A stretch of 64,000 nucleotides of DNA. Origin: Pseudomonadota bacterium (GTDB lineage Bacteria > Pseudomonadota > Gammaproteobacteria > Acidiferrobacterales > Acidiferrobacteraceae). The stretch spans positions 1 through 64,000 of the forward strand of contig JAJYDN010000002.1 of NCBI GenBank assembly GCA_021777535.1, written 5' to 3'. Below are positions 1 to 13,181 of this stretch, piece after piece (the first letter of the stretch is position 1; every line of letters begins with the position of its first letter). The notes under the pieces were generated by a model. The model worked only from the letters and a program-made list of their open reading frames with translations, searched no databases and had not been told where the DNA came from. The position numbers were made by a program, and so were the translations under genes.

Positions 1-816
1 GATCTCGGATCGAACCACCGCAACGAAGTCGAGTACGATCCGTACTACGACACCATCCGGCGGATCAAGGACGAGTTTCCCGATTTTCGCATAGCGATGC
101 ACACGGCCCTGGTCGATGCTGCGATCGCAGGCCGCATGGCCGATGCGGGCATCGATGCGGCGATGATGGACGTCATCGGGGCGCAGGACACGATTACGCA
201 GGTCTACCACTTAAAGCGCAGGCCCGACGATTTTGAGCGCGCCCTCGAGGCGCTGACGGGCACGTCCATGAAGGTGGTGCCCCACATCGTGGTCGGGCTG
301 CACTACGGGCAGCTACTCGGCGAGTGGCGCGCCCTCGAGATGGTGGCGCGCCACAAACCGGCGGCACTGGTTCTGGTCGTCGTCATGCCGACTTATGCCA
401 ATGAACTGCGGCCCTTCGTTGCGCCCGATGCACATGAAGTGGGACAGTTCTTTTTCGATGCCCGAGAGGCCCTGCCGGGGCTGCCGCTGCTGCTCGGTTG
501 CGCGCGGCCACCGGGCGAGGCCAAGCAGGTCATCGACGCTTATGCCGTCATGGCTGGTATCAACGGCATGGCGCATCCGAGCGACGGGATGGTGGAACTG
601 GCGGCCCGCCTGGAGCGGCCAGTCCGGGTGACGGCTTCCTGCTGTTCGATCGCGGTGGGTGACGAAGTGATGGCCTTGGGCGACCCCAATCAGGGCCTGG
701 AGATTGATCTGCCGCGCATCCTCGAGGAGGAGCGCCAGCGGCGTGCGGCGCGGTCTGGGCCGCTTGGGCGGATCAAGGTCGTGGGCGGTTCGGGCTCGGG
801 TTGTTGTAGCGCATGA
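1..816 (+). CDS. lipS1: LipS1, radical SAM lipoyl synthase component (3' part)
   Basis: Reading frame 1 is open from the first base of the window to a TGA at 816, so this is the C-terminal 271 residues of a longer protein whose start and radical-SAM cysteine motif lie upstream. The fragment looks like the TIM-barrel end of a radical SAM enzyme and ends in a Gly/Ser/Cys-rich tail (GGSGSGCCSA). Identification rests mainly on context: it overlaps by 4 bp (ATGA) a lipoate-protein ligase, which is followed by a flavoprotein and a second radical SAM protein. That is the gene set of the LipS1/LipS2 lipoate pathway of sHdr-type sulfur oxidizers, where LipS1 and LipS2 together insert the two sulfurs into an octanoylated carrier protein. 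The paired cysteines at the tail could bind a cluster, but this is inference. Confidence 0.8.
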   Translation, partial: DLGSNHRNEVEYDPYYDTIRRIKDEFPDFRIAMHTALVDAAIAGRMADAGIDAAMMDVIGAQDTITQVYHLKRRPDDFERALEALTGTSMKVVPHIVVGLHYGQLLGEWRALEMVARHKPAALVLVVVMPTYANELRPFVAPDAHEVGQFFFDAREALPGLPLLLGCARPPGEAKQVIDAYAVMAGINGMAHPSDGMVELAARLERPVRVTASCCSIAVGDEVMALGDPNQGLEIDLPRILEEERQRRAARSGPLGRIKVVGGSGSGCCSA

Positions 817-1883
817 GGCAGGTCTGGCGGCTCCTCGACACGGGGCTGCGGCCGGCCGCCGAGAACATGGCGCTCGACCGGACGCTGCTCGAGTCGACCC
901 AGGCAGGGGGCGTCAACACCCTGCGGTTTCTCCGTTTCAGGCCATCGGCCCTCATCGGGTTCCATCAAAGCGCGAACCAGGAACTGCATCTCGAGTACTG
1001 CCGCGAACACGGAATCGGCGTATCGCGGCGCATCACGGGTGGCGGTGCGCTGTACTGCGACGAGGGCCAGATAGGCTGGGAGCTTTTTCTCAACCGGCGG
1101 ACGTTCGATACAGCGGACATGCTCGCGATAGCGAGCAAGATCTGCGGGATGGCGGTAGAAGGCCTGCGCAGCCTCGGCATCGACGCCGCGTTCCGGCCGC
1201 GCAACGACATCGAAGTCGGCGGGCGCAAGATCGGCGGCACCGGGGGGGCGTTCGATGGCGAGGCGCTTCTGTATCAGGGCACGGTGCTGACGGATTTTGA
1301 TGTCGAACGGATGATGCGGGTGCTGCGCATCCCGCGCGAGAAGATTTCGGACAAGGCGATTGCGTCCGCACGCGAGCGCATCACGACCCTGAACGAAGTG
1401 GCGGACGGGTCGATAACCAATGCCGCGGTACAGCAGGCACTGGCGACGGCGTTTGCGGAAGGTTTCGGGGTGGACCTGCGCGCGCAGGGACTCACGGATG
1501 GCGAAGAGGATCAGTTTGGGCGCTACCACCGCGAGATGAGCTCGGATGATTGGCTCCTCGAGACTGATCGTCCGCGGCTCGAGGTGGCAAGCGTGAGCGC
1601 GGTCCGCAAGACTGCAGGGGGTCTTGTCCGTGTCATGTTGCTTGTCGACAGGCCGCGGGAACGCATCAAGCAGGCGTTCATTACCGGGGATTTCTTCGTC
1701 AACCCGAAGCGTACGATCGTGGATCTGGAAGCCGCGTTGCGGGATTCGGCCTACGAGCGGTTGCGCGAGATCGTCGACCATTTTTTTGCCACCCATCCGG
1801 CACAGATGCTGCTTTTGACGCCGGATGACATCGCCTCGGTGATCGGAGAGGCGCTCGCGCAGAAGGATACGGTTGCCTCATGA
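813..1883 (+). CDS. slpl(AB): Lipoate:protein ligase sLpl(AB) with fused accessory domain
   Basis: A 356-residue lipoate-protein ligase. It activates lipoate or octanoate with ATP and attaches it to a lysine of the acceptor, here probably the lipoate-binding protein LbpA of the sHdr complex. The catalytic LplA-type domain spans about residues 1-245. It has the lipoyl-AMP loop RRITGGG (72-78) and the catalytic-lysine segment GRKIGG (K139). A further roughly 100 residues match the position of the LplB/accessory C-terminal domain, so A and B parts are in one chain. The ATG overlaps the lipS1 stop by 4 bp, and the stop overlaps the next start by 4 bp, so the set is translationally coupled. Family assignment is firm; acceptor specificity is inferred from neighbours. 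Confidence 0.88.
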   Translation: MRQVWRLLDTGLRPAAENMALDRTLLESTQAGGVNTLRFLRFRPSALIGFHQSANQELHLEYCREHGIGVSRRITGGGALYCDEGQIGWELFLNRRTFDTADMLAIASKICGMAVEGLRSLGIDAAFRPRNDIEVGGRKIGGTGGAFDGEALLYQGTVLTDFDVERMMRVLRIPREKISDKAIASARERITTLNEVADGSITNAAVQQALATAFAEGFGVDLRAQGLTDGEEDQFGRYHREMSSDDWLLETDRPRLEVASVSAVRKTAGGLVRVMLLVDRPRERIKQAFITGDFFVNPKRTIVDLEAALRDSAYERLREIVDHFFATHPAQMLLLTPDDIASVIGEALAQKDTVAS

Positions 1884-2944
1884 GCGGTGTGACGTGCGAC
1901 GTGCTGGTGGTAGGGCTCGGCCCGGCGGGCGCGGCGGCCGCGGGCGCGGCGGCGCGCGCGGGTCTTTCGGTTCTCGCCATCGACAAGCGGCGGCAACTGG
2001 GAGAGCCCGTGCAATGCGCGGAATTCGTGCCGCTTGCCATGGGCCGCTACGCGAAGGACGCGTTCGTGCAACGGATCATCGGGATGCGCAGCATCCTGCC
2101 TTCAGGGGTGATCGAGCAGTCCGATTTCCCCGGTTTCATGATCGATCGCGGGGCGTTCGATCGGGCACTCGCGGCGCAAGCCGCGCAAAGCGGCGCGCGG
2201 CTGCGCACCCAGACGGCATTGAAGGGACTGGATACAGGGCGGTCCGAAGCGGTACTGCGTGGCGCGGGCCAGGAGGCCGGGACGGTACGCTACCGCGTAC
2301 TGATCGCAGCGGATGGCCCGCACTCCCCGGTGGCGCGGATGATCGGCTGGCCCGCCATACCCACGGTGGAGACGCGCCAGTACAGTCTGCCGCTGCTAAA
2401 GCCATACGGGGATACGGATATCTGGCTGTCGGATGCGTACCCGGGCGGGTATGCCTGGCTTTTCCCGAAGGGGGATGTGGCCAATGTGGGACTCGGGGCG
2501 GATGCACACTTGTTGCCGGACATGAAGACACCGCTCGACATGCTGTGCGCGCAGCTAATCCGCGAGGGTGTGGTCGGAGACAAGATTCTGGCGCGTACGG
2601 GTGGAGCGATCCCGGTAGGCGGGTTGCGGCCTTCGCTCGTGCAGGAAAATATCCTGTTTGCGGGCGATGCGGCGGGGCTTACCCACCCCATCACGGGCGC
2701 CGGCATCGCGAGTGCCGTGGTTTCGGGTGAGCGTGCGGGCCGCGCGGCCACCGAGTTTCTGGGCGGAAAGCAGGATGCTCTCGCCGAATTCGAGGAAGAC
2801 ATGCGGGATGCATTCGAGGACAGCTTGACGCGGGCGGTCGCGCGCAGGCGGTGGTTGATGGCGCGCTGGCATACACCGGCGGCGCTGCTGGACGCAACTC
2901 ACAAGCGGGGCTGGGTTGCCTTTCGTGAATATTTTGCTGCCTAA
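1880..2944 (+). CDS. lipT: LipT-like FAD-dependent oxidoreductase (geranylgeranyl reductase family)
   Basis: A 354-residue flavoprotein of the geranylgeranyl-reductase/FixC family. The dinucleotide-binding GLGPAG (12-17) follows the first strand, an Asp-Lys after the second strand (about 35) binds ribose, the family signature PGGYAWLFPKGD is at 188-199, and the second FAD motif AGDAAG is at 261-266. There are no membrane segments and no isoprenoid-biosynthesis neighbours. Overlap with the ligase gene and closeness to lipS2 point to LipT, the flavoprotein that accompanies LipS1/LipS2. Its exact reaction is, as far as I know, not settled; supplying electrons to the radical SAM pair is plausible. 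A general menaquinone or phytyl reductase is the alternative, less likely by context. Confidence 0.85.
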   Translation: MSGVTCDVLVVGLGPAGAAAAGAAARAGLSVLAIDKRRQLGEPVQCAEFVPLAMGRYAKDAFVQRIIGMRSILPSGVIEQSDFPGFMIDRGAFDRALAAQAAQSGARLRTQTALKGLDTGRSEAVLRGAGQEAGTVRYRVLIAADGPHSPVARMIGWPAIPTVETRQYSLPLLKPYGDTDIWLSDAYPGGYAWLFPKGDVANVGLGADAHLLPDMKTPLDMLCAQLIREGVVGDKILARTGGAIPVGGLRPSLVQENILFAGDAAGLTHPITGAGIASAVVSGERAGRAATEFLGGKQDALAEFEEDMRDAFEDSLTRAVARRRWLMARWHTPAALLDATHKRGWVAFREYFAA

Positions 2945-2965
2945 GGCATTGTTGAGGAGAATATC

Positions 2966-4096
2966 ATGAGCGTTCCTGCCGACTCGGTCAGTCCGGTCAC
3001 CTTCTACCGGCCGAATTACCACATCAAGACCCCGGACATGCGTTCGCCCGAATACGTGCAGATGTCGACGGCTGCGGCGATCACGCTCGGACTCGTGCCG
3101 GGCACCATGCACCGGACCGGTTGCACCCACTGCCTCAATCTGCTTGTGACTTACGCGGAAGGATGCCGTGCCAATTGCGCCTACTGCGGCCTTGCCCGCC
3201 ACCGGGAAGAGGCACGCGATTACGCGGACCGCAACTTCATCCGCGTCGACTGGCCGACCGTGCGCTTCGACGAGGTCATCGAGCGCATGACAGGCGGCAG
3301 TGATTCCGCGCAGTTCCAGCGCATGTGTATCTCCATGATTACACATCCGAATTCAGATCACGACACGATGGTGCTGCTACAGAAGTGGACCGCGGCGTTG
3401 CCCCATGTTCCGGTGTCGATCTTGTCGAACCCCACCTCCATGGAAAAAACGGATCTCGTGGCGCTGCGCGATGCCGGGGCGGACATCTTTACCGTTGCGC
3501 TGGACGCGGTCACTCCCGACATATTCGAGCGCACGCGCGGCAAGACCGTCGACAGCCCCCATAAGTGGGACAAGTACTGGCAGGTGATCGAATGGGCCGC
3601 AGAGGTCTTTGGTCCGGAAAAATTCGGCGCCCATCTCATTTGCGGGATGGGGGAGACGGAAGAGGACATGCTGCGTGTGGTCCAGCGGATCGCCGACATG
3701 GGCGGCCACAACCACATGTTCGCCTTCTTTCCGGAGCGCGGGTCGCTCATGGAGGATTGGGAACCGGTCCCGCGCGACCAGTGGCGGCGCGTGCAGCTCG
3801 GGCGCTTCCTGATCGACTATGCGGGCGGGGACGTGGCGAAGATGCGTTTCGACGAGGAAGGGCGGGTGGTGGATTTCGGCCTGGCCGAAGAAGATCTCGC
3901 GGCCCTGATCGAATCTGGCAAGCCGTTCCAGACATCGGGCTGTCCGGGCAAGGATGACGAAGAAGTATCGGCCTGTAACCGCCCTTACGGTGATTCCAGC
4001 CCCTCGGATATCCGCTCCTTCCCGTTTGCCCTGAACCGGCGCGACGTCGACATCGTCAAGCGGCAGATGGCGGGCGAGGATATCGGGACCCTCTGA
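2966..4096 (+). CDS. lipS2: LipS2, radical SAM lipoyl synthase component
   Basis: A 376-residue radical SAM protein. The SAM-binding cluster motif C67-x3-C71-x2-C74 is intact, and an additional Cys pair (C53, C56) precedes it. Near the end, C326 and C337 lie shortly before an RSFPF segment at 350-354, at a place where canonical lipoyl synthases carry auxiliary-cluster elements. It starts 21 bp after lipT behind a GAGGAG ribosome-binding site. With LipS1 it is expected to insert sulfur at C6 and C8 of protein-bound octanoyl chains, making lipoate for the sHdr carrier protein. It is not like the classical LipA in length or in spacing of the Cys motifs. The assignment of the extra cysteines to an auxiliary cluster is inference. 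Confidence 0.87.
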   Translation: MSVPADSVSPVTFYRPNYHIKTPDMRSPEYVQMSTAAAITLGLVPGTMHRTGCTHCLNLLVTYAEGCRANCAYCGLARHREEARDYADRNFIRVDWPTVRFDEVIERMTGGSDSAQFQRMCISMITHPNSDHDTMVLLQKWTAALPHVPVSILSNPTSMEKTDLVALRDAGADIFTVALDAVTPDIFERTRGKTVDSPHKWDKYWQVIEWAAEVFGPEKFGAHLICGMGETEEDMLRVVQRIADMGGHNHMFAFFPERGSLMEDWEPVPRDQWRRVQLGRFLIDYAGGDVAKMRFDEEGRVVDFGLAEEDLAALIESGKPFQTSGCPGKDDEEVSACNRPYGDSSPSDIRSFPFALNRRDVDIVKRQMAGEDIGTL

Positions 4097-4105
4097 TCGG
4101 CCAAG

Positions 4106-4131
4106 TCGCCAGGGTGGCCACACCCTGGCGA
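4106..4131. terminator. Hairpin terminator between convergent genes
   Basis: A perfect 11-bp stem (TCGCCAGGGTG / CACCCTGGCGA) with a GCCA loop lies in the 49-bp gap between the lipS2 stop and the convergent stop of the outer-membrane protein gene. There is no clear T-run on either side, so it may work as a bidirectional pause or a weak intrinsic terminator. Confidence 0.6.
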
Positions 4132-4145
4132 TGTTCCCCGTCCCC

Positions 4146-5300
4146 CTAGGAAAACCGCCGGCTAAAGCTCAAGCCAAAGACCTGTGCGGCGCTCCTGTAG
4201 GACCCGTTGTAGGCACTCGTGCCGTTCGGAACGGGGCCGGCAAGCGCCGTCGCACTATTTACCGTACGCGCATTGAAGTGGATGTATTCATAACCTGCGC
4301 TTAGTGTCCAGGGTCCCATGCGCTGGGTGGCGCCAAGGCTCGCAATTTCCTGGTTTGCGGCAGGCAGGCGCGCCGAGAAGGGCGTTGCGCTTACCTGGCT
4401 GTACCCAAGGCCTGCGCGTAGCGCCACGCCCTCGCCCAGCCCATAGTGCATTCCCAGCCGGTAGCTGTTCATGTTGCCGGCAGAAGTCAGCATGGTGGGT
4501 CCGCCTGGAACCGCGGGGCTCGTAAATCCACTCCAGCCGCTGCGGGTGAAGTCGAATTCGAATCCCAGCTCCTTCGTCGCCGTGCCGTGGAGACCCACGG
4601 CCATTTGCCAGGGCAGATGCACGGTGGTGCCGGCAGTGACCGGTATGTTGACCGCCGACCGGTAGGTGGCGCCGAAAGCGATCTGACCCATGCGGGCGGC
4701 CACGCCGACGTTGCCGCCGAAACGGGTCCCCGAGCCGCTCACGGATGCCGTGGGCGTGTTCGCGGCGAAACTGCGCGCGTAGTAGTAATTGGCCCCGACA
4801 TTGATGCCGGCGTCGCCGATCTGGTAGGTAAAATCCGGACTTGCGTCGTACACCTGCAGCTCCGTGTAGACGGGGGCGAGTCCCGCATCGGCACCGGTGA
4901 GGGCCGGAAAGGCGGTAGCCGGCCAGGCGAGGCTTGCGTCGTATGGCTCATTCAGAGCCAGTCCAAATCGCGTATGCTGGGTCAATTCCGCGTTGATGAA
5001 AACATCGGGCATGGTGGCCCAGTGCGGGGCAGTGGCCCCCGTCCGGTATGGCAGGCCGGGCGCCCGCACGCTCGTATTGAGGTAAAGGCCCCGTACGCCA
5101 ACCTCATAGCCGCTTTTGTGAAAGGCCATGTTGGCGGGATTGTAGGCGAGCGCACCGAGGCTTTCGGTGTTGGCGACGACCGCGCCGGCCTCGCTGATTC
5201 CGAGGATGGACAGGGGGGCTGGCGCATAGCTCGCCGCATGGACGACCCCTGAGACCAGGAGCGGGGCAAGCGGCACAAGGGCTGGCCAAAGACGGCGCAT
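4146..5300 (-). CDS. FadL/OmpP1-family outer-membrane protein
   Basis: A 384-residue beta-barrel transporter of the OmpP1/FadL/TodX family, which moves hydrophobic substrates across the outer membrane. The start at 5300 is chosen because an AGGAG site lies just upstream and a clean signal peptide follows (MRRLWPALVPLAPLL..., cleaved near residue 22 after VHA). After the signal comes the family-type segment with Ser/Gly-rich turns and NPANMAF. The C-terminus is a short aromatic strand (FGLSFSRRFS), as in barrels, though the last residue is Ser rather than Phe. It is divergent from a second, longer FadL-like gene at 5553. The substrate is unknown; in a sulfur oxidizer, long-chain or elemental sulfur is a possible cargo, which is only inference. 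Confidence 0.8.
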   Translation of the reverse strand: MRRLWPALVPLAPLLVSGVVHAASYAPAPLSILGISEAGAVVANTESLGALAYNPANMAFHKSGYEVGVRGLYLNTSVRAPGLPYRTGATAPHWATMPDVFINAELTQHTRFGLALNEPYDASLAWPATAFPALTGADAGLAPVYTELQVYDASPDFTYQIGDAGINVGANYYYARSFAANTPTASVSGSGTRFGGNVGVAARMGQIAFGATYRSAVNIPVTAGTTVHLPWQMAVGLHGTATKELGFEFDFTRSGWSGFTSPAVPGGPTMLTSAGNMNSYRLGMHYGLGEGVALRAGLGYSQVSATPFSARLPAANQEIASLGATQRMGPWTLSAGYEYIHFNARTVNSATALAGPVPNGTSAYNGSYRSAAQVFGLSFSRRFS

Positions 5301-5398
5301 AACGTCTCCTCGAAGATTTTGCGGAGTGTCATGATCGGTGATCCGCGCAAGCCATTCAAGCGCCTGCATGGATCGCCGGTCGGAAAGATGTTGCCATA

Positions 5399-5428
5399 TT
5401 GACAGAAGCGTGACGGACGCGGAATATT
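5399..5428 (+). promoter_or_regulatory. Putative sigma70 promoter for the 5553 gene
   Basis: A perfect -35 TTGACA (5399-5404) is followed after 18 bp by AATATT (5423-5428), a 4/6 match to the -10 box. It lies in the 252-bp divergent region between the two FadL-type genes and would give a leader of about 120 bases. A second, weaker pair (TTAAGA, then GATAAA nearer the gene) is also visible. Confidence 0.4.
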
Positions 5429-5552
5429 GGCGGCATCCTCGACGTCGGTTAAGACACTTTCAAGAGTGCGCCGATAAAATCCAAGAAGACGAGAGGAGAA
5501 CGCGGCCCCGAGGCTGCACATCTTACGGGTGTCCATTAGGAGGACATAAAAA

Positions 5553-6881
5553 ATGATGAGCAAGAAGAAGTTGGCGTTGGCTTCGGCCGTGGCTGCGGCC
5601 CTGGCGTTGCCGGTGAGCGCCTTCGCGACGACCGCCGGTTACTTTCAGCTGGGTTACAGCACCATCAGCGACGGCATGGCCGGTGCCAGCGCCGCCCTTC
5701 CCCAAGACAGCATGATCCAGGCCACCAACCCCGCGGGCATTGCCATGGTGGGGAACCATCTGGATCTGGGCGTGGCGGGTTTCTGGCCCTTCCGCGGCTA
5801 CACGAGTGGCATCGCCGGTCACTCCGGGTGCTCGGCGGCCGGTTGCGGCCCCATGCCCAATCCCGGCCAGATCGGCAGCAACACCAATTTCTTTCTGATT
5901 CCGCACATCGGCTACAGCCAGAAACTGAGCCATGACAACTACGTCGGTCTGGCCATGTACGGCAACGGCGGCATGAACACCAACTATCACACGCCGAACG
6001 CCACGGCCACGGTGCCTTATAGTGGCCCCTACTACGGTGGCCAGGCTGGCGTGAGCCTCACGCAGATGTTTTTGCAGTTGACCTATGCCCGCCGCTTCCT
6101 GCGCCATGATGCGGTCGGTCTGAGCCTGATCTATGCCTACCAGCGCTTCAGCGCCGATGGCCTGGCCGGCTTCGAAGGTTTCTCCGCGAGCCCCAACAAC
6201 ATGACCGGCAAGGGCACGGCCACTTCCGACGGTGTCGGCTTCAAGGTGGGCGGCCAGTTCCAGATCTTCCCGGGCCTGAATGTCGGTATCGCCTTCTCGC
6301 CGCGCATGACGATGTCGAAGTTCTCCAAGTACTCGGGTCTTTTTGCCGGTCAGGGCCGCATGGACATCCCGGCCAATGGCGTCGTGGGTCTGGCCTTCGA
6401 GCCGACCAACCGGCAGGCGATCGACTTCGACTTCCAGCGCATCTTCTACGGCGATGTGCCGGCAGTGGGCGATCCGACCATCATCACAACGAGTTCGACC
6501 GGTTACCCGGCGCTGCCGTCCGGCGCGTTCGGTTCGACCAATGGTTCGGGCTTTGGCTGGCAGGACATCGATGTCTACAAGATCGGCTATCAGTACAAGG
6601 CGACCCGCGACACCACATGGCGCGTCGGCTTTGCCTATAACAACCAGCCGATCCAGCAGAGCCAGCTCCTGCTGAACATCCTCGCCCCGGGCGTCATTCA
6701 GCGCCATGTGACAGTGGGCCTCACGACCCGTGTTGCGAGGGGTCAGGATGTGAGTCTGGCTGCGATGTACGGTCTGCCGCAGGCCCTCTACGGCAATGCG
6801 CCGGCGGCCCTGGGCGGTGCCCCCATCAAGATCGAGATGCACGAATATCAGGTCGAGGCGAACTGGGGTTGGAAGTTCTAA
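5553..6881 (+). CDS. FadL/OmpP1-family outer-membrane transporter
   Basis: A 442-residue outer-membrane protein of the FadL family. It has a signal peptide (KKK then a hydrophobic core, cleaved after SAFA near residue 25) and an N-terminal stretch starting with TTAGYFQLGYSTISDGMAGA, resembling the plug or hatch region of the family. The segment ATNPAGIAM is the usual Asn-Pro-Ala motif, and the chain ends in NWGWKF, with the C-terminal Phe needed for barrel assembly. A strong AGGAGG lies 9 bp before the ATG; a second ATG follows directly and could serve instead. A rho-independent terminator follows at 6910. High use of Gly and Asn and the strong ribosome-binding site suggest an abundant protein. 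The cargo is unknown: fatty acids, hydrocarbons or sulfur are possible. Confidence 0.85.
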   Translation: MMSKKKLALASAVAAALALPVSAFATTAGYFQLGYSTISDGMAGASAALPQDSMIQATNPAGIAMVGNHLDLGVAGFWPFRGYTSGIAGHSGCSAAGCGPMPNPGQIGSNTNFFLIPHIGYSQKLSHDNYVGLAMYGNGGMNTNYHTPNATATVPYSGPYYGGQAGVSLTQMFLQLTYARRFLRHDAVGLSLIYAYQRFSADGLAGFEGFSASPNNMTGKGTATSDGVGFKVGGQFQIFPGLNVGIAFSPRMTMSKFSKYSGLFAGQGRMDIPANGVVGLAFEPTNRQAIDFDFQRIFYGDVPAVGDPTIITTSSTGYPALPSGAFGSTNGSGFGWQDIDVYKIGYQYKATRDTTWRVGFAYNNQPIQQSQLLLNILAPGVIQRHVTVGLTTRVARGQDVSLAAMYGLPQALYGNAPAALGGAPIKIEMHEYQVEANWGWKF

Positions 6882-7973: not shown

Positions 7974-8375
7974 ATGAAGTCCATCCAGGTTACCGACATC
8001 GGGCAGTTGAAGAACGAGCTGAATAAATACCGCAAGGGCAAGAAGCTCGAGATCCGGCAGTTCAATCAGGCGGCGCGGCTCGCGTGGCTTGGCCGGCTTA
8101 CGATGATGCCGCTCGAACCGGAAGATCCGCAGACCGAGTCCTATCTCGTCTATGTGGATTTCCCCGAAGGGTTGAGCGCGCAGCTCATCCAGATCGACGA
8201 AGATCTGGTTGGCCGCATCTTCATTCTCGATGGAGAGCAGGGCCGTTATCTTGCAGAGATCATCGAGCAGGGCGTGCATGAGCGCGCCGCGCTCTATCAG
8301 GAGCTCGACCGGCGGGACTTCTATTTCGGCAAGTTTTACCGGCCTGAAAAGACGCAGGACGAAGCGGGTAACTAG
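7974..8375 (+). CDS. Conserved-looking small cytosolic protein, unknown function
   Basis: A 133-residue soluble protein, not recognised. It is rich in charged residues, with an amphipathic first third (QLKNELNKYRKGKKLEIRQF), then an alternating strand pattern (SYLVYVDFPEG, LSAQLIQIDEDLVGRIFIL) and a basic, aromatic C-terminal end (DRRDFYFGKFYRPEK). It has no signal peptide, membrane span or cysteine. It starts 53 bp after a terminator hairpin and stops 5 bp before the receiver-like gene, so the two probably form one transcript and may act together. The codon pattern fits its neighbours. Confidence 0.6.
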   Translation: MKSIQVTDIGQLKNELNKYRKGKKLEIRQFNQAARLAWLGRLTMMPLEPEDPQTESYLVYVDFPEGLSAQLIQIDEDLVGRIFILDGEQGRYLAEIIEQGVHERAALYQELDRRDFYFGKFYRPEKTQDEAGN

Positions 8376-8380
8376 CCCTT

Positions 8381-8764
8381 ATGGCGGCACCGACCATTGC
8401 CGACCGGCTGAGCCGCCGCTTTCTGTTGATGACGGCGGATGCGGATCTGGCAGGCCGCCTGCAGGCCGACGTGCCTGCCGCGTGGCAGATGCGCGTCGTG
8501 ACCAGTCTGGACGAGGCCGGTGACTGGAACGACATCCTGCTCTACCGGTTTCTCGTGCTCGATCTCGACGAGGTCGACGCCTTTGATCCTATCGATGTGA
8601 TTCGGGTGCTGCGGATGGAGTATCTGCTGCAGATCGCCGTGTTCTGTTTTGGCGGTGATGTGGATGTCCGGGACGAGATGCGGATGTCACGAGCCGACCG
8701 CTTCTTTGACCGCGATCAGATCGTGACCGTCCTGCCGCAATTCCTGGCGCAGTACAGCTGGTGA
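8381..8764 (+). CDS. Degenerate response-regulator receiver-like protein
   Basis: A 127-residue stand-alone protein whose strand and helix order follows a CheY-type receiver. FLLMTADAD is strand 1 with a possible acidic site, MRVVTSL is strand 2, FLVLDLDEVD is strand 3 carrying a candidate phospho-acceptor Asp, and IAVFCFGG is strand 4. The strand-5 lysine of real receivers (usually in a K-P pair) is missing; the place reads DRFFDRDQ. No output domain is attached. A phosphate-independent or partner-binding receiver is the best guess. It follows the unknown 133-residue protein by 5 bp, and its stop is 2 bp from the stop of a convergent gene. The family call is based on pattern only. Confidence 0.5.
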   Translation: MAAPTIADRLSRRFLLMTADADLAGRLQADVPAAWQMRVVTSLDEAGDWNDILLYRFLVLDLDEVDAFDPIDVIRVLRMEYLLQIAVFCFGGDVDVRDEMRMSRADRFFDRDQIVTVLPQFLAQYSW

Positions 8765-8765
8765 A

Positions 8766-9092
8766 TCAACCCAGCCACTCGTGGGCCAGGACGTCCAGCC
8801 GCAGGTCCTGCCGGAACGTCTGTCCCTTGCTTTCGATGACGAGCGTGGCGAGCCGGGTACCGGGGGTCTCGAACGCTACTTCGCAGGTGAACGTATCCGG
8901 CAGGTTGATCTGCTGGTCGCAGCGGGCCTTGCTTTCGCCTTCGATCAGGACTTGCGCATGGGCGTGGCCGTCGCCATTCAGGAGCGCCTGAATGCGGAAG
9001 GGCTTTTTCGGCACGCGCCGGTACACGGCCGGATCGCGATTGGCGTTGTACGTCAGATTGTTGAGGCGCACGAGTTTGACGAGTGTGTTCAT
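8766..9092 (-). CDS. Small beta-rich protein, unknown function
   Basis: A 108-residue protein, not recognised. It reads as short strands (RIQALLNGDGHAHAQVLIEG, RLATLVIESKG) without signal peptide or membrane span, and has two cysteines (in KARCDQQ and TFTCEV) that could pair or bind metal. It is single on the minus strand, convergent with the receiver-like gene (stops 2 bp apart) and divergent from the gene at 9179. Codon use is like the surroundings, and the opposite-strand reading is less protein-like. The start at 9092 is supported by a GGGAGC site shortly upstream. Confidence 0.5.
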   Translation of the reverse strand: MNTLVKLVRLNNLTYNANRDPAVYRRVPKKPFRIQALLNGDGHAHAQVLIEGESKARCDQQINLPDTFTCEVAFETPGTRLATLVIESKGQTFRQDLRLDVLAHEWLG

Positions 9093-12086: not shown

Positions 12087-13181
12087 ATGGCTGAAATCGC
12101 TCATGAGGCGCTCGATCTGGTCGGGCGGATGCTTACTGAATCCGGCCGCCACGGCGCATCGGATCTCCATCTACGGGCCCGCAATTATCCGATCGTGCGC
12201 ATCGATGGCGCACTGCGGGCCCTCGACCAATTCCCCCGGCTGACCGCGGAAGCGGTCGAGCAGATCGGCCGGGCCATGATGACGCCCCGCCAGCTGGCCC
12301 TGCTCGAGCGGGATCGCCAGGTGGACCTGTCGCGCGGCTTCAAGGGCATCGGACGCGTCCGCGCCAACATCTTCTTCCAGCGCGGAACGATGGCGCTGGT
12401 TCTGCGCATCATTCATGGTCTGGTGCCGCCCCTTGCGTCGCTTGGCCTGCCGGACATGGTCGCTGCGCTCACCAACCTGGAAAGGGGTCTCGTGGTCGTC
12501 ACCGGGGCCAGCGGCTCGGGCAAGACCACGACGCTCGCCGCCCTGGTCAATGAGATCAACCAGAATCAGACCAAGCACGTCCTCACCATCGAGGACCCGA
12601 TCGAATTCCTGTTTGCCGAGCAGCGCTCCCTCATCACGCAACGCGAGATCGGCGTCGATGCGCCCACTTTTTCGGAAGCCATGCGCGCGGCCTTGCGCGA
12701 AGATCCGGACGTGATCCTCCTGGGCGAGATGCGGGATATCGAAACGATCGAAACGGCACTGCGTGCCGCAGAGACCGGACATCTCGTTCTGGCAACCGCG
12801 CACGCGCCTGCGGCACCCGAGGCCGTCAACCGTCTCATTACGGCATTCCCGCCGGAGGCGCAGGCCGGCACGCGGGTGAAGGTGGCGCAAAATCTGCGCG
12901 CGGTGGTCAGTCAGCGCTTGCTGCCGAAAGCTTCCGGCAAGGGCCGGGTCGTCGCCTGCGAGGTGCTCACCATCTCGGCACTGGCGCGGGAACTCATTCT
13001 CGATCCGGCGCGCATCAAGGATCTGCCGGAGCTTTTGAAGCGGGGTAGCGTCAACGAAGGCATGCTGAGCTTTGACGCCTCGCTCCTGCGTCTCGTTCAG
13101 CAAAAGAGCATCACGCCGGACGTGGCCTTGCAGTATGCATCGAGCGCGACGGATCTGCGGCTCAAGATCGAGGGTTTTTAG
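12087..13181 (+). CDS. pilU: Type IV pilus retraction ATPase, PilU type
   Basis: A 364-residue hexameric AAA+-like ATPase of the PilT/PilU family, which retracts type IV pili for twitching or DNA uptake. It has the Walker A GASGSGKTT (140-148), the Asp box TIEDPIEF, the Walker B VILLGEMRD and the His box ATAHAP. The C-terminal part reads GMLSFDASLLRLV and ends in TDLRLKIEGF, as in PilU, and lacks the AIRNLIRE-type motif of PilT. The ATG at 12087 is chosen because homologous N-termini begin there and a GGGGGGA site precedes it. No pilT or other pilus gene is adjacent. Its stop lies 20 bp inside the convergent gene at 13162. Confidence 0.82.
   Translation: MAEIAHEALDLVGRMLTESGRHGASDLHLRARNYPIVRIDGALRALDQFPRLTAEAVEQIGRAMMTPRQLALLERDRQVDLSRGFKGIGRVRANIFFQRGTMALVLRIIHGLVPPLASLGLPDMVAALTNLERGLVVVTGASGSGKTTTLAALVNEINQNQTKHVLTIEDPIEFLFAEQRSLITQREIGVDAPTFSEAMRAALREDPDVILLGEMRDIETIETALRAAETGHLVLATAHAPAAPEAVNRLITAFPPEAQAGTRVKVAQNLRAVVSQRLLPKASGKGRVVACEVLTISALARELILDPARIKDLPELLKRGSVNEGMLSFDASLLRLVQQKSITPDVALQYASSATDLRLKIEGF

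Follow-up and report, generated by a model that had tools for sequence, protein, structure and literature searches.

The gene arrangement lipS1-sLpl(AB)-lipT-lipS2 has already been published as a lipoate-assembly set (PLoS Biol 2023, PMC10332631; eLife 2018, PMC6067878). In Thioalkalivibrio sp. K90mix the four genes stand in this order, with lipY added, in a cluster (TK90_0641-0644) beside hdr-lbpA (PMC10332631), and in Hyphomicrobium denitrificans the same enzyme set, in the order lipS1-lipT-lipS2-slpl(AB), is found beside sHdr-lbpA2 (PMC10332631). The radical S-adenosylmethionine (SAM) enzymes LipS1 and LipS2 have been studied in Thermococcus kodakarensis, where LipS2 adds the first sulfur to octanoyl-lysine at C8 and LipS1 the second at C6 (PMC9585515). 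Here we analyzed a stretch of 64,000 nucleotides (hereafter the window) from a metagenome genome of the Acidiferrobacteraceae, whose left end carries an operon of the same four genes. We read them, with a probability of roughly 0.94, as the lipoate-assembly end of a group I sHdr sulfur-oxidation cluster, acting on the lipoyl protein LbpA as proposed.

The first base of the window is also that of contig 3, in a 2.3 Mb assembly of 76 contigs, and in the open reading frame listing its positions 1-4096 are filled by four genes on the plus strand. The first, lipS1 (1-816, 271 amino acids; assigned by profile search and relatives), is open at the 5' end and corresponds approximately to residues 111-381 of a 381-residue protein from the same genus, the first ~110 codons being cut by the contig start. 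It is followed by the octanoate/lipoate-protein ligase gene sLpl(AB) (813-1883, 356 amino acids), with a catalytic A domain and a C-terminal B domain, by lipT (1880-2944, 354 amino acids; profile search), encoding a flavin adenine dinucleotide-dependent oxidoreductase of the geranylgeranyl-reductase superfamily, and by lipS2 (2966-4096, 376 amino acids; profile search, alignment and predicted fold), encoding a radical SAM sulfur-insertion enzyme. The first two junctions read gcATGAgg (813-816) and tcATGAgc (1880-1883), each a 4-base-pair ATGA overlap, and lipT and lipS2 are separated by 21 base pairs. The operon and the overlaps among its first three genes, both proposed in an initial annotation made from the letters alone, are therefore real, as read from the reading frames, the junctions and family matches for all four proteins.

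The best NCBIfam matches were LipS1 for the 271-residue fragment (6.9e-41), lipoate-protein ligase for sLpl(AB) (3.2e-48) and LipS2 for the lipS2 product (6.5e-58); the lipT product matched a geranylgeranyl-reductase flavoprotein subfamily above its cut-off. The ligase carries archaeal-type A and B domains, with Thermoplasma LplA (2ars, 1.4e-30) and, for the C-terminal part, LplB (3r07_C, 4.4e-06) as its nearest solved relatives, and is clustered with both lipS1 and lipS2. LipT most resembles an archaeal digeranylgeranylglycerophospholipid reductase, which has a cysteine aligned with LipT Cys46, a residue conserved without exception in 78 sequences. Among solved structures, neither LipS1 nor LipS2 had a sequence relative. 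In structure comparison, the best resemblance of predicted LipS2 (modeled with low confidence near residues 49-53, 68-94 and 334-344) was to lipoyl synthases and biotin synthases of solved structure, and that of predicted LipS1, taken from the full-length same-genus protein, was to biotin synthase. Its cluster order matches the published type, and the operon is an ordinary member of this pathway, described only recently. It differs from Thermococcus kodakarensis, where the LipS1 and LipS2 genes are not clustered.

The initial annotation had predicted that the left edge continues into sHdr and lbpA genes. In a genome of the same genus (G001), a single contig carries rhd-tusA-dsrE-hdrC1-hdrB1-hdrA-hyp-hdrC2-hdrB2-lbpA1-dsrE-lbpA2-lipS1-sLpl-lipT-lipS2, and intact sHdr-lbpA-lip clusters are also present in genomes of the same family; in both, the group I sHdr arrangement is complete. 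When the G001 cluster DNA was searched against the genome of the window, bases 1-5000 of contig 46 (reverse) matched positions 1311-6318 of the G001 stretch, and contig 3 from base 7 matched position 12826 onward. Encoded at the end of contig 46 are TusA, DsrE, HdrC1 (its gene intact) and residues 1-91 of HdrB1, all 96-99.6% identical in protein to G001. We infer from this synteny that contigs 46 and 3 are neighbors, between whose facing ends ~6.5 kb, by the G001 sequence, are absent; most simply, this would be a gap in assembly or binning. The contig 46 end and the intact clusters of relatives bear out the predicted continuation. The initial annotation would have given up the sHdr-linked role if the genome had no sHdr or lbpA gene, or if a classical lipA/lipB set accounted for all lipoylation and the lip genes belonged to another pathway; neither condition applies, as sHdr genes are present. 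A reading in which the genome lacks sHdr and has an HdrAACB-like set on contig 73 as its sole Hdr was overturned by the same DNA search. That set (L023:9216-14280; HdrA-HdrA-HdrC-HdrB-like, named by eye) lies beside CbbQ/CbbO-like genes, apart from the sHdr cluster.

A scan of ~85,000 species genomes with the LipS2 alignment gave 413 relatives, of which the best 80 were used for locus counts; their loci span Thioalkalivibrio, Acidithiobacillus, Sulfuriferula, Ectothiorhodospira and many metagenome genomes. Among these 80 loci, lipT was found in 79, sLpl and lipS1 in 76 each, lbpA2 in 72 and hdrB2 in 58. Gene order is normally as in the window lineage, and most loci whose contig reaches far enough have sHdr genes upstream. 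In a minority of six loci (L114, L118, L119, L125, L143 and L146), lipS1 is preceded by tusA-dsrE-lbpA2, and the stretch fetched for each showed no hdr genes.

Further evidence comes from the cysteines of the two radical SAM enzymes. In Thermococcus, the ligands of the auxiliary [4Fe-4S] clusters were identified by mutation as C230, C276 and C277 of LipS1 and C85, C276 and C279 of LipS2 (PMC9585515). For each enzyme, the SAM motif and all three auxiliary-cluster cysteines could be matched, the latter by order, spacing and context rather than by alignment. In LipS1, the latter are the equivalents of Cys277 (nucleotides 499-501, plus strand) and Cys324/325 (640-645, plus strand), invariant in 74 of 74 sHdr-type sequences. 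The CxxxCxxC motif of LipS1 falls outside the window, in the lost 5' part, and is visible in relatives only. LipS2 has its motif, C67xxxC71xxC74, within the window (3164-3187, plus strand), together with the probable auxiliary-cluster ligands Cys121 (3326-3328, plus strand), corresponding by order and spacing to Thermococcus C85, and Cys326 and Cys337 (3941-3976, plus strand), corresponding to C276 and C279. The latter pair is more widely spaced in the bacterial protein (C326-x10-C337 versus C276-x2-C279), and all three are invariant in 81 of 81 sHdr-type sequences.

LipS2 contains six cysteines outside the SAM motif, at positions 53, 56, 121, 226, 326 and 337. The initial annotation rightly singled out C53/C56, C326 and C337 but overlooked C121, the probable partner of the last two; C226 is not conserved. 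Cys53-x-x-Cys56 (3122-3133, plus strand), upstream of the motif, is invariant in the 81 aligned sequences and in four more at ~60% identity, and is absent from Thermococcus LipS2 (PMC9585515 Table 1). Since Thermococcus LipS2 has no more than three cysteines apart from the motif, all later in the chain (PMC9585515), C53xxC56 appears to be a trait of the bacterial type, its absence from the archaeal enzyme being read from the residues published for a single protein. Across the phylum, a search for more remote LipS2 proteins recovered only five true members in 299 genomes and nothing archaeal. One may speculate that sHdr-type LipS2 forms a subclass with a mechanism of its own, in which C53xxC56, e.g. 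as a persulfide site or as part of a further cluster, would bind or relay sulfur so that the spent auxiliary cluster is rebuilt, connecting lipoate synthesis with the sulfane-sulfur carriers of the cell; we regard this as doubtful.

Several results weigh against our assignment to an sHdr-linked lipoate pathway. The LipS1 fragment scored 140 bits and the full-length same-genus LipS1 206 bits against the curated NCBIfam cut-off of 230 (NF053742), and LipS2 scored 196 bits against a cut-off of 270 (NF053743). The LipS2 cut-off was passed in none of 299 Pseudomonadota genomes, so the low scoring is common to the bacterial type, which the LipS1 and LipS2 equivalog models do not cover. More directly, hdrA, hdrC2B2 and lbpA1/lbpA2 were not found in the assembly, so that of the genes the initial annotation suggested looking for on the left, only tusA, dsrE, hdrC1 and the start of hdrB1 were recovered (on contig 46), the presence of the others being deduced from the two contig ends and from relatives. 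A CCG-domain search of the genome returned no sHdr HdrB1 or HdrB2, HdrB1 being missed because the hdrB1 fragment stops before its CCG domain, and a GcvH-domain search returned no LbpA1/LbpA2. A deletion of the hdrA-hdrC2B2-lbpA stretch in place of an assembly gap is formally conceivable. The operon would then have been kept after loss of the sHdr core and would now serve another lipoyl protein, e.g. LbpA3, which is encoded on contig 71, unlinked to the operon, and is present and well conserved. Yet both breaks fall exactly at contig ends inside one cluster, as an assembly gap would give, the intact hdrC1 retains 99.6% protein identity to its same-genus relative, and the cluster is retained in those same-genus and same-family loci that extend far enough. 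We consider such a loss highly improbable.

The genome also encodes the canonical route. LipB and LipA are adjacent on contig 73, so that an operon for making lipoate without LipA/LipB, as initially annotated, is an apt description of the operon but not of the organism; LipA alongside LipS1/LipS2 is common in bacteria (PMC10332631). LipB/LipA yields the same product on lysine but differs in its first step, a transfer from acyl carrier protein, and in using a single synthase with other cluster motifs. The GcvH gene is part of a gcvT-H-P-P run on contig 39, in which gcvT and gcvP were named by eye. No lipoyl domain of a 2-oxoacid dehydrogenase was recognized in the genome; the four biotin/lipoyl-family matches resemble, by eye and in context, either biotin proteins or enzymes that depend on biotin. 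The operon might also back up LipB/LipA by supplying lipoate to the glycine cleavage system, as the genome encodes every enzyme required and GcvH, related to LbpA, shares its fold family. In other organisms, lipoylation was shown for LbpA and not for GcvH or 2-oxoacid dehydrogenases (PMC6067878, PMC10332631), and we regard a back-up role as unlikely.

The preferred reading, in which the operon is the lipoate-assembly end of the sHdr cluster, draws here on the operon itself, synteny, conserved cluster ligands, predicted fold and sHdr genes in the same genome, all derived from sequence. How the enzymes work, and that sLpl(AB) and LbpA2 are needed, was demonstrated in other organisms (for bacterial function, PMC10332631 and PMC6067878), and by analogy the whole scheme would apply in this one. 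With ATP, sLpl(AB) would couple free octanoate (or lipoate) to the LbpA1/LbpA2 lysine, after which LipS2 would insert sulfur at C8 and LipS1 at C6, the auxiliary [4Fe-4S] cluster of each acting as its presumed sulfur donor. LipT would probably pass electrons from NAD(P)H to both LipS1 and LipS2, as has been suggested (PMC10332631). Lipoylated LbpA would then serve the sHdr complex, with GcvH served separately by LipB/LipA. Of the division of labor among the four proteins, described initially as incompletely settled, the parts of LipS2 and LipS1 have been settled experimentally in the Thermococcus pair (PMC9585515).

Downstream of lipS2, the window encodes an OMPP1/FadL-type outer-membrane protein (5553-6881, plus strand; Toluene_X, 1.7e-12), a candidate lipY, i.e. 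a putative fatty-acid transporter. Similar FadL-type proteins are found downstream of lipS2 in many related loci, including the fetched Thioalkalivibrio loci; compared with K90mix, the window lineage has one more gene between lipS2 and the FadL-type gene, porin-like and in opposite orientation (4146-5300, minus strand). Two small genes farther on (7974-8375, 133 amino acids; 8381-8764, 127 amino acids) gave no Pfam or NCBIfam match, and their families occur on the same strand downstream of lipS2 in ~45 of the 80 lip loci, across lineages. In Thioalkalivibrio, Acidithiobacillus, Sulfuriferula and Burkholderiales loci, the two are separated by a second lipoate-ligase-like gene of very divergent sequence (L096:14491-15537, L105:14181-15107, L134:13089-14291 and others), many of its products having RRPLGGG-like and GRKI motifs; it is not found at that position in the window lineage. 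A 108-residue protein encoded at 8769-9092 (minus strand) is likewise without a family match and occurs in 25 of the 80 loci, including those of Thioalkalivibrio and Acidithiobacillus.

At its N and C termini, LbpA3 (L021:9453-9902) carries the cysteines by which LbpA is told apart from GcvH (PMC6067878), and it forms its own tree group with moderate support (87/71). It was found in 17 of 17 other same-family genomes searched, at 74-87% identity, and at 67-69% in one further family. Its island (L021:7577-11262), syntenic in nearly all same-family genomes shown, also contains a divergent lipoate-ligase-like gene, a CRP-type regulator, two hemerythrin-like proteins and a thioredoxin-like protein. 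The island ligase, which may or may not be the second ligase of other lineages in a new location, shares 26-34% identity with the second-ligase proteins and ~36%, over the core, with sLpl.

Taken together, the lipoate pathway of sHdr sulfur oxidizers would reach this acidiferrobacterial genus unchanged, and the context hidden by the contig edge is restored. The conserved C53xxC56 pair may bear on how the cluster spent by radical SAM sulfur-insertion enzymes is restored. The FadL-type channel, the two small families, the second ligase-like gene and the LbpA3 island are candidates for missing parts of the LbpA system.
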